From Cladocopium goreaui (taxonomy: Eukaryota > Sar > Dinophyceae > Suessiales > Symbiodiniaceae), in the NCBI GenBank assembly GCA_947184155.2, contig CAMXCT020005046.1, positions 395,001-459,000 on the forward strand: a stretch of DNA of 64,000 nucleotides, read 5' to 3'. Position 1 is the stretch's first letter. The number at the start of each line of letters is the position of its first letter. The position numbers and the translations under genes are program-made. This document shows, one piece after another, positions 41,784-51,063 of this stretch. The notes below the pieces were generated by a model. The model saw only the letters and a program-made list of their open reading frames with translations, ran no database searches and had not been told where the DNA came from.

Positions 41784-41808
41784 TGTCCTTCTGTAGGAGG
41801 CGTTTGGA
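41784..41808 (-). CDS. Crotonase-family exon j
   Basis: The exon encodes SKRLLQKD after acceptor CGGGAG, in phase 0 with exon i, matching the (AL)xxSKxLIxK helix. Upstream in the same frame FALRE is also open, so the acceptor could be CTGAG at 41825-41829. The donor is GT (GTTTTT) or GA. Confidence 0.55.
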
Positions 41809-43308
41809 CTCCCGCAGGGCGAACCTCAGTACAACTTGCAAATTTCAGGGGTTCCAGCATGTTCTATCCAACAAAGTCAGGGCATCCAAAAAATGAAAAA
41901 AAAAAAAAAGGATGAATTGAAGCCAATTCGGGGGGCATCACTAAAAAGACAAGAGCAACTTTGTCAAGTGAGAAGCCGTCCTGGTTCGGGTTTCATCCCT
42001 TTTTTTTTTGGCAAAATCCCCTAGTTCGGTTGACGAGATCACCCTTTTGTTGGTTCAATCGTTCAATCCCGATTTCAGCTGGAAAAATACCCACTTGTGG
42101 TACCAGTGGACTCAAGACAAATCGAGTGTTTATTGTGAAAAATCATGCCGCATGTTGTTGTATTTGATGCAATGATATCCAGTGTCATAATGTATCAAAA
42201 ATAATAATCCATTATGACACTGGTTTCCATTATAAGTGTATATGATAAGTGTCATAATGTATCAAAAATAATCCATGGTTTCCATTCTCAGCATACTTCG
42301 ACCCACAGTGATACCTCAGCCCCAGACTGTGGCATCTTAGCCATCTTCTTTGCAGCCTCCACTGCTTTGGGAAGCACCTGCTTGTGCTTTAGAGTGGGGA
42401 TGGGTCAAATCATTGGGATCCCCAAAATTTAGGGATTTCAATAGGAAAACTGGACCGAAGATATGTGTATTGTGGTTTCGACCCCCAAAATCAGTGGATC
42501 CCCTGCGACCGAAGTCAGCCGAAGTCAGCATCAGGATCGGGAGCATCCCAGCCTCCTTGCTGGGAACCACCTCGGTGCAAAGTCCCCACCTCGCTGCCGC
42601 CAAGGGGGTCACGATTTTGGGGATATCCTCTGTGGAAAGTTGAAATGGAAATTGAAAGATCCCCCTTTCTGGGCCAAAAAGGCCTTACTGTTTGCTGAGC
42701 CGATTTTGGGAATGAGTCACAGAGTCACATCAAGAGGAGAATCTGCCAGAAATGTGGTCATTGTTGGGTTCATAGCAACCCAAATTTCGCTATGATTTGG
42801 TATTGACCCACACCCATGTCTGCTTCCAAGAGGCTGCAGCGCCTGCTGTGCGGTGAACTCTGAACCGTACCTGTGCCAGTTGGGATTATCTGGCCCGATG
42901 ACCATCTGGCAATACAGCCAAGGGGTATGCCAGAAATGCCAGTTGACTGCCAGGGTTTCAAAAACAGGACCTCTAGACTCTAGACAAAGCCATAAATCAA
43001 GCAGGATAGTTCAATGAGCATTTGGCGGATTTTTTTTCCAGGACCTCTTTTGGGCAAACTGGCATAGATACGGAAAACCCATGATTTCCGTAGGAATGAT
43101 CTGATCAGCATTTCTGGTGGACGTCCGTGCCTATGTTAGTTTGCTGGATGCTCCATGGATTAAATGGTGGAATCCCCACGGCACCGCCCTTCTGCTAAAG
43201 AGACCCCACTTCCCCACTTCGAGCTATTGATGGATATAGAAGGCCTATCTATATACATATGTGATACATGTGTTTGTGTGTGTGCGTCCGTGTACAAAAT
43301 TCTAAAAT

Positions 43309-50600: not shown

Positions 50601-51063
50601 ATAACAAGAGGGTATGCCATTTGGATCTCTCCCCCCTGTGAAAAGCCAAGTGACTTCTTGCACGAGATTCAAGCCTCGAGTCATGGATGACCATAACAGA
50701 AATGACGACTGGGGATGCCCATTTCAAGAAACCTGTGGGAAATCTGTGGTTCTTAGATGGTCTTAGATATTGACCCATAGCAACATGAAGTATGTCATGC
50801 ATCTGACCATCACCTTCGGGGTGTGGCAACCAAAGTATGGTAGTCGTTGGTGATGAAGGCAAAACCAAAACAAGAAAATCAAACCATGTATATAATACCA
50901 AAAAGGCGTTGTTTTGACTCAAGACCCCCAAACAAATTGGGGAAACTTATCAGGACTTGATCATGTTTTGAACGTCCAAAGCTTGCCCATTTCACGCCCA
51001 GGAACTCATGCAGTTGAGCCGTTTTGGATCGTTCAAGGTGATCACGAAAACACCGTCACCAGC
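41784..51063 (-). CDS. Enoyl-CoA isomerase/hydratase (crotonase) family protein, spliced gene (at least 10 exons)
   Basis: Crotonase-fold enzymes act on acyl-CoA; the isomerase branch shifts cis/trans-3-enoyl-CoA to trans-2-enoyl-CoA for beta-oxidation in mitochondria or peroxisomes. Exons in order give the N-terminal strand VFVITLNDPKRLN; TGAGRAFSAGGNF (first oxyanion-hole loop); SAINGTTIGGGINLGL (second oxyanion loop); FRYPFGELGLVPELGSS; VVGLTRAKQLMQ; AARWGLCTEVVPS; VLPKAVEAAKKMAKMP; and SKRLLQKD. The Glu of VPELGSS sits where isomerases carry their catalytic acid. The position of the second hydratase Glu (PE in classic enoyl-CoA hydratases) is Phe, favouring isomerase. A linker exon between 51.0 and 49.9 kb, a short exon between 46.07 and 45.41 kb, and the C-terminus were not found; no peroxisomal targeting tripeptide was seen. 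Confidence 0.8.
42315..42377 (-). CDS. Crotonase-family exon i
   Basis: Twenty-one codons read VLPKAVEAAKKMAKMPQ then SGAE, the helix after EVVP. The acceptor is CAAGCAG and the donor GT (GTATCA). Both ends are in phase 0. Confidence 0.8.
42556..42627 (-). CDS. Crotonase-family exon h
   Basis: Twenty-four codons read DIPKIVTPLAAARWGLC then TEVVPSK, matching the AxxAxxxGLVxEVVP motif. The pyrimidine-rich acceptor is TTTCCACAGAG. The donor is GA (GAGGCT), because joining there to exon i keeps frame. Confidence 0.8.
43457..43511 (-). CDS. Crotonase-family exon g
   Basis: The exon encodes PRVVGLTRAKQLMQCPQK, matching the LVGxxRAxELxLTG helix of the fold. The acceptor is CACAG and the donor GT (GTGGAA). 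It joins exon h in phase 0. Confidence 0.75.
43746..44182. repeat. ~65-bp tandem repeat, seven units
   Basis: The unit contains ATTCAATTGGGAAGATCAAC, AAAGGTATTAGGGAATATTA and AATCCCACCCCCGTTAA. Units differ by small deletions and substitutions. It lies in the intron before crotonase exon g. Confidence 0.9.
44187..44440. repeat. ATG, TGTC and CCGT microsatellites
   Basis: (ATG)10 at 44188, TGTC/CCGT tracts at 44290-44400. A GC-rich block between (44220-44275) reads LGFAPNRKDDGQR on the minus strand but has no acceptor. Confidence 0.8.
45337..45412 (-). CDS. Crotonase-family exon f (catalytic Glu region)
   Basis: The exon encodes DVTFRYPFGELGLVPELG then SSVLLRL. The acceptor is GCCCCCAG and a GC donor (GCTGAA) sits just before an in-frame TGA. 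The Glu of VPELG is the expected isomerase acid. The phase to the next exon is not resolved, so a short exon may lie between. Confidence 0.85.
45922..46005. repeat. ATCAAAATCC (x3) and CTAGGCAAT (x6) tandem repeats
   Basis: Two short perfect arrays back to back, just 3' (in transcription) of crotonase exon e. Confidence 0.9.
46072..46130 (-). CDS. Crotonase-family exon e (second oxyanion loop)
   Basis: The exon encodes ISISAINGTTIGGGINLGL plus two bases. The acceptor is CCCCAAG and the donor GT (GTGGCAGG). AINGxxIGGGxxLxL is the strongest single signature of the family in the window. Confidence 0.85.
47189..47291. mobile_element. Inverted-repeat element, family B
   Basis: TAATGTGGGAAACCC and GGGTTTACCACATTA as at 6.3 kb, with GGGGATGGTTTAGGGGTTA inside. 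A short remnant, GTTTACCACATTAGACGC, lies at 25300. Confidence 0.75.
47779..47820 (-). CDS. Crotonase-family exon d
   Basis: Fourteen codons read VFEGYIQALGDLGA, from acceptor CTGCGAG to a GC donor (GCTAAG). It joins exon e in phase 0, giving ALGDLGAISISAING, the helix that leads into the second loop. Confidence 0.6.
48351..48462. mobile_element. Inverted-repeat element, family A (intact)
   Basis: TACCCTCTGGTGAACTAACA and TGTTAGTTCACCAGAGGGTA are exact mirrors. Compensating changes in both arms against other copies show the arms have stayed matched. Confidence 0.85.
48852..48938 (-). CDS. Crotonase-family exon c (first oxyanion loop)
   Basis: The exon encodes WTGAGRAFSAGGNFTD then TSSTVPEEAAEG. 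FSAGGNF is the diagnostic A-x-G-G loop. The acceptor is GATGAG, and a GT donor lies within the run of six G before TGCATAG. The exon is GC-rich, unlike the intron. Confidence 0.75.
49807..49869 (-). CDS. Crotonase-family exon b
   Basis: The acceptor ACAG precedes GGATGGGATGG. The exon encodes GWDGWAKEHAKRDERC then KIIVL, matching the helix and strand just before the TGAGxAFSAG loop. The join to exon c is not exact: the edge needs a GG or GA donor, or a later one. Confidence 0.6.
50160..50271. mobile_element. Inverted-repeat element, family A
   Basis: It starts TACCCTCTGGTAAACG and ends AGTACCAGAGGGTA. The right side has lost a few bases. An ATATATACAAATAAATCCCAT flank is shared with the 48.4 kb copy, so the two may be a segmental duplication. 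Confidence 0.75.
50497..50614. mobile_element. Inverted-repeat element, family A, degraded
   Basis: TCTGGTTATGACTAACATAGC at the left and GCTATGTTGAATAACAAGAG at the right mirror each other imperfectly. Confidence 0.6.
51012..51063 (-). CDS. Crotonase-family exon a (N-terminal strand)
   Basis: The acceptor is CGCCCAG before GCTGGTGAC. The exon reads AGDGVFVITLNDPKRLN, the usual opening of the fold (VAVITLNRPEKxNAL). A GC donor (GCATGA) leaves one base. The residues before it must lie in an upstream exon. Confidence 0.75.

Follow-up and report, generated by a model that had tools for sequence, protein, structure and literature searches.

Can a crotonase be encoded in dinoflagellate DNA in which no single open reading frame reveals one? 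The question arises for a window of 64,000 bases (positions 395001-459000 of contig C5042), from a searched genome that totals 1.17 Gb over 6202 contigs. The original prediction was that ordered fragments on the minus strand of this window rebuild most of an enoyl-CoA isomerase/hydratase. A 21-base pattern, which we take to be the dinoflagellate spliced leader, gave 172 exact matches genome-wide and its reversed control gave none, so the host genome is that of a dinoflagellate, as had been supposed. The sequence makes it highly probable that the locus is an ordinary, and probably functional, nuclear dinoflagellate crotonase gene, carried on the minus strand in at least ten short exons with GT or GC donors and AG|G acceptors. 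It would be transcribed from that strand and spliced by the spliceosome as modelled below. The gene and its ten anchored blocks, a block being called anchored when it was recovered in 7/7 runs at intron penalties of 5-12 bits, are the following.

51063 to 41674, minus strand: crotonase-family gene, at least ten short coding blocks, in order.
50996..51063, minus strand: exon A, AGDGVFVITLNDPKRLNCMSSW(A), strand 1 of the crotonase fold (51057-50996 scoring 20.8 profile bits).
49811..49882, minus strand: exon B, (SSGQGWDGWAK)EHAKRDERCKIIV, 3' edge CGT|GT (9.9 profile bits).
48863..48938, minus strand: exon C, WTGAGRAFSAGGNFTDTSSTVPEEA, first oxyanion-hole loop (24.3 profile bits).
46069..46151, minus strand: exon D, EMIKFPKISISAINGTTIGGGINLGLL, second oxyanion-hole loop (27.2 profile bits).
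45345..45412, minus strand: exon E, DVTFRYPFGELGLVPELGSSVLL, active-site region with the Glu in PELGSS, donor GC (18.2 profile bits).
43470..43511, minus strand: exon F, PRVVGLTRAKQLMQ, donor GT (19.1 profile bits).
42835..42870, minus strand: exon G, YGSEFTAQQALQ, donor GC (8.0 profile bits).
42553..42589, minus strand: exon H, WGLCTEVVPSKE, donor GC (19.6 profile bits).
42328..42377, minus strand: exon I, VLPKAVEAAKKMAKMPQ, donor GT (9.3 profile bits).
41674..41824, minus strand: exon J, the last, FALRESKRLLQKDSFSTELSTLGPTCPKLNMEPNEGQIQQVVKSFLDLL and a TGA stop (16.3 profile bits over the first 21 residues).

The anchored blocks are 36-151 nt long and score 8.0-27.2 bits against the profile, the lowest being G, I and B (8.0, 9.3 and 9.9 bits). 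They hold the motifs that had been quoted for this gene: GVFVITLNDPKRLN from strand 1, TGAGRAFSAGGNF from the first oxyanion loop, ISAINGTTIGGG from the second, YPFGELGLVPELGSS, and the C-terminal helices. The two loops, whose AFSAGG-type and GGG-type sequences we take to be those of the oxyanion hole, stand in order, AFSAGGNF in exon C and GTTIGGG in exon D. Joined conservatively, with B and J trimmed (177 aa), the ten blocks match Pfam ECH_1 (PF00378) at 96.7 bits against a cut-off of 27 and cover positions 4-204 of the 251 in the profile, whereas the same blocks joined in reverse order reach 28.1 bits, barely above the cut-off and all from exon D. A first rough join of 159 aa had given 38 bits, and the C-terminal half by itself gives 61.1 bits. 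The full model reaches 124.3-127.9 bits and ends at profile position 210, values inflated by fitting, since this model was fitted to crotonases and includes two candidate microexons. With a score above the curated cut-off over most of the domain and both loops present in order, the protein belongs to the crotonase superfamily; the search for which a missing family match had been named as the refuting outcome returned PF00378. What can be read directly is the order of the exons, their open frames, the coding composition, six stable junctions and the homology over Pfam positions 4-210.

The same ordering was recovered by spliced alignment of the region to a profile of seven crotonases found on contig C1 in this assembly (alignment A1, first row dropped), using an aligner that permits only three donors, GT, GC and GA, with AG as the acceptor, and is blind to frameshifts inside exons. 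With introns penalised by 10 bits the score of the region was 60.8 bits. None of 69 controls exceeded 25.6 bits: first-order Markov resamples (n = 30) averaged 19.8 and peaked at 25.6, column-permuted profiles (n = 30) peaked at 24.3, and nine further stretches, among them the plus strand of this same region, scored 19.5-24.8. A penalty of 4 bits was rejected as overfit, giving 22 'exons', many of them spurious, and a broken E-F joint; the conclusions use penalties of 5-12 bits.

Six introns were constant across 7/7 runs over that range of penalties, three with GT donors (B-C, F-G and I-J) and three with GC donors (E-F, G-H and H-I), and all six end in AG|G, as do the acceptors of exons D and E in 7/7 runs. 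The AG|G acceptor is presumably a dinoflagellate intron trait. The bonus given to it differed by run (0.7 bits, none, or imposed), and only the no-bonus run tests it freely: there 8/12 acceptors were followed by G, compared with 147/569 AG dinucleotides across the region, and the remaining four belong to three uncertain blocks or to exon B, whose 5' edge is itself uncertain. For the donors, 15 dinucleotides were tried one at a time beside GT, and GC gave the largest gain, raising the score from 53.1 to 78.2; every other choice also raised it, to between 55.4 and 66.6, the latter for TC and TG as next best. The expectation of donors other than GT was thus borne out. The gene has the dinoflagellate type of structure (GT/GC/GA donors, AG|G acceptors), the donor set being limited by the model except in the comparison of 15 dinucleotides, and it provides a worked case of GC donors paired with AG|G acceptors. 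Composition follows the model: G+C is 56.6% in the exons, with both candidate microexons counted, and 67.7% at their third codon positions, and it is 41.9% in the introns.

The outer edges and some inner ones are less sharply drawn. The acceptor of exon A, CCCAG|G, is assumed, and its 3' end may fall at GGC|GT (50996), at TGG|GC (50998) or, at low penalty only, at 51006; its frame is open upstream as far as an ATG, over a stretch without recognised homology. A start exon upstream of 51063 was looked for and none was found, and translation might begin inside block A. The 5' edge of exon B varies between 49882, 49848 and 49836, the 3' edge of exon C between 48863, 48866 and 48851 (a GC donor in every option), and the 3' edge of exon D between 46069, 46059 and 46056. 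At the other end, the frame of exon J stays open down to a TGA (41674-41676), some 110 bases past the boundary first drawn at 41784. Since this extension gains just 1.6 Pfam bits (125.9 versus 124.3), the tail is plausible, not proven, as coding sequence.

Three of the nine joints between anchored exons, A-B, C-D and D-E, vary across settings. Relatives carry about 16 more helix residues between C and D, and about 5-7 more residues between D and E, both counted by eye. Three candidates for these gaps are listed here.

47782..47820, minus strand: candidate C-D exon, VFEGYIQALGDLG, AG|G acceptor and GC donor, picked by eye for the missing helix.
45535..45556, minus strand: candidate D-E microexon SCSLATE, 22 nt, acceptor AG|T, unlike the six constant introns.
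45646-45660, minus strand: rival D-E block AFVGE, 15 nt, AG|G acceptor and GA donor.

The first of these lifts the Pfam score from 115.9 to 124.3 bits, but a rival block at 48567-48632 beats it on the crotonase profile (136.5 versus 127.3 bits). These two and the further C-D candidates, 47756-47799 with 47337-47358 and 48755-48799, depend on the setting or were chosen by eye, and the best C-D exon was equalled by 89/100 and 76/100 shuffled introns in two tests; none is established. SCSLATE was equalled by 7/100 shuffled introns and is to be distrusted because it is entered at AG|T, against the preference for AG|G in the no-bonus run. Under imposed AG|G the best D-E block became 45837-45848, equalled by 49/100 shuffles, and neither of these two nor AFVGE is established. 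The candidate C-D and D-E microexons are not clearly better than chance. For A-B, the alternatives were GGC|GT to ACAG|G, TGG|GC to ACAG|GG (by eye) and an extra exon at 50647-50674; in this interval 48/100 shuffled introns equalled the real one. When the whole A-C interval was shuffled, exon B included, the real score was reached in only 1/100, so exon B is supported and an extra A-C exon is not. In the E-F interval real and shuffled scores were equal, giving no extra exon there. The ten blocks originally proposed over 41784..51063 are real, but ten is a minimum, because the start exon and probably one microexon each in C-D and D-E are still missing, and the frame of the last exon runs past the lower of those limits to 41674.

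These gaps are what might be expected if the locus were a pseudogene, a decayed crotonase copy with its exons still recognisable: the start exon has not been found, and the C-D and D-E stretches of the fold lack a well-supported exon. Against this, the reading frame is open in each of the ten anchored blocks and kept across the six constant introns (as seen with an aligner blind to frameshifts within exons), the contrast in G+C between exons and introns is retained, and no second copy was detected in a whole-genome search with the rough join, in which seven of nine matches at E <=10 belong to this gene and the others have E values of 0.144 and 4.17. We regard decay as improbable. Far less credible still is a chance assembly in which short frames without relation to one another mimic crotonase motifs by accident, for although the single exons are short and only two of six 22-28 aa pieces scanned singly match Pfam at E <=10 (the 28-aa piece of exon D reaching 18.2 bits to PF00378), the spliced score of 60.8 stands against a control maximum of 25.6 and the join in reverse order retains the match of one block only.

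For a functional dinoflagellate crotonase, the predicted protein of about 250 residues would act on a CoA-thioester in the breakdown of fatty acids, either as an enoyl-CoA isomerase or as a hydratase, and would hold the thioester carbonyl in an oxyanion hole made of the AFSAGG and GTTIGGG loops, with the Glu of PELGSS perhaps serving as base. PELGSS aligns with PEFGSS of 7bor, and the Glu of such PE-GSS motifs is, we assume, at the catalytic position of Eci1/ECI2-type isomerases. The rat hydratase uses what we take to be a catalytic pair, Glu144 and Glu164, and by motif register, which rests on that numbering, the residues here are N (in GGGIN) and F (in YPF). Because of the Glu in PELGSS and the N and F at the hydratase positions, the protein leans weakly towards a putative enoyl-CoA isomerase rather than a hydratase. 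Among the best 60 of 213 matches to solved structures, the full model scored 106.4 bits with 3hrx, presumably a Thermus protein, and 72.1 bits with 1dub, which we understand to be the rat hydratase. The likeness to ECI2/PECI (4u18, 2f6q) amounts to 76.8 bits with 4u18 over chain residues 34-240, again for the full model, and presumably extends to the position of the Glu in the PE-GSS motif; it differs in that other crotonases, such as 3hrx, score higher. Animal ECI2 carries an ACBP domain. No ACBP domain was found in front of the crotonase on contig C5042, and the three matches genome-wide all lie on contig C3902; the C-terminus of the protein is without an SKL-type signal. On C3902 these three domains score equally, at a spacing of 318 bases within one open frame of 423 aa (162221-163075; L034, L035), and this frame is possibly a tandem polyprotein. 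Of the 25 NCBIfam models listed among 72 matches, NF006699 (PRK09245) was the closest, at 135.8 bits where its cut-off is 354, and as the protein falls below the cut-off of each, none of those 25 names applies to it.

In the libraries searched, bacterial crotonases come out as the best relatives, ahead of ECI2 and the mitochondrial hydratase. This opens the doubtful but conceivable reading of a crotonase of bacterial origin that gained at least nine introns in the dinoflagellate nucleus, GC-AG|G ones among them, and perhaps also microexons of 15-22 nt; if it were true, comparison across dinoflagellates could date each intron gain. A genome scan for bacterial relatives gave 36 pattern-matching stretches, none related by tblastn, and a plasmid search was without match. 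The assembly also holds crotonases of another kind. Contig C1 (7.377 Mb) accounts for 10/18 ECH_1 matches, in stop-free open frames, with 58-62% G+C in the seven loci fetched (L001-L004, L006-L008), and seems to represent the chromosome of a bacterial associate. A full-length, single-frame crotonase at 244541-248287 of the 641-kb contig C2380 (L005; locus 68.6% G+C) belongs either to another bacterial contig or to an intronless acquired gene.

How unusual is such a gene for a dinoflagellate? In the tabulated data of a comparison of three Symbiodinium genomes, genes have 21.8, 19.9 and 4.1 exons with mean exon lengths of 109.5, 101.7 and 255.7 bp, and the predominant donors are GC/GT/GA, GT/GC/GA and GT/GC (PMC5177918). 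A review gives 25-74% of Symbiodiniaceae introns as of the GC/GA-AG type (PMC11453091). The gene described here resembles the Symbiodinium genes, as far as those tables describe them, in its many short exons, its introns of hundreds of bases and its GC and GT donors, and differs in that its anchored exons (36-151 nt) lie mostly below the tabulated means (PMC5177918). On the same tables, its structure agrees with the published norm for two of the three genomes, and in every one of them the commonest donors include both GC and GT. The original claim that the gene would be hidden from gene finding stands in so far as simple family searches miss it: a six-frame ECH_1 search of the genome at E <=0.001 gave 18 matches, of which ten lie on C1 and C5042 holds none. 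"Hidden" is nevertheless an overstatement, because three of the six constant introns have GT donors and published gene callers have been adapted, PASA and AUGUSTUS having been adjusted to non-canonical splice sites in the Symbiodinium annotation (PMC5177918). We prefer to regard the gene as a correct but ordinary find within the known dinoflagellate pattern, one that leaves the picture of crotonases and of dinoflagellate splicing unchanged and that shows how a gene may be retrieved from raw dinoflagellate DNA even when no single frame reveals it. A literature search for dinoflagellate enoyl-CoA isomerase and introns gave no match, and no claim of absence from print rests on it.

The window also carries repeated sequence. 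An element of 105-112 bp with inverted ends TACCCTCTGGTGAACTAACA and TGTTAGTTCACCAGAGGGTA occurs at 48351-48462, 50160-50271, 34431-34535 and 59732-59836, and exact TACCCTCTGGT was observed 13 times in the window against 0.04 expected. Two copies sit inside the C-D and A-B intervals at a distance from the anchored splice sites, so the element does not span an intron as modelled. Genome-wide, where 40 of 2731 first-look candidates were scored, full-length or near-full-length copies at 89-94% identity were found, and the 12 loci analysed (one being the window copy, and two pairs sharing flanks) all had paired ends within two mismatches. The element resembles a non-autonomous DNA transposon of the short kind; as its ends hold GT and AG, it might act as an introner elsewhere. 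Of the simple repeats, six perfect copies of AATCTAGGC occupy 45946-46000 in the D-E interval just past exon D, a 65-bp tandem array of 6.8 copies lies at 43742-44173 within the E-F intron, and a 62-bp tandem repeat of 8.4 copies with 94% matches lies downstream of the gene at 39309-39834.
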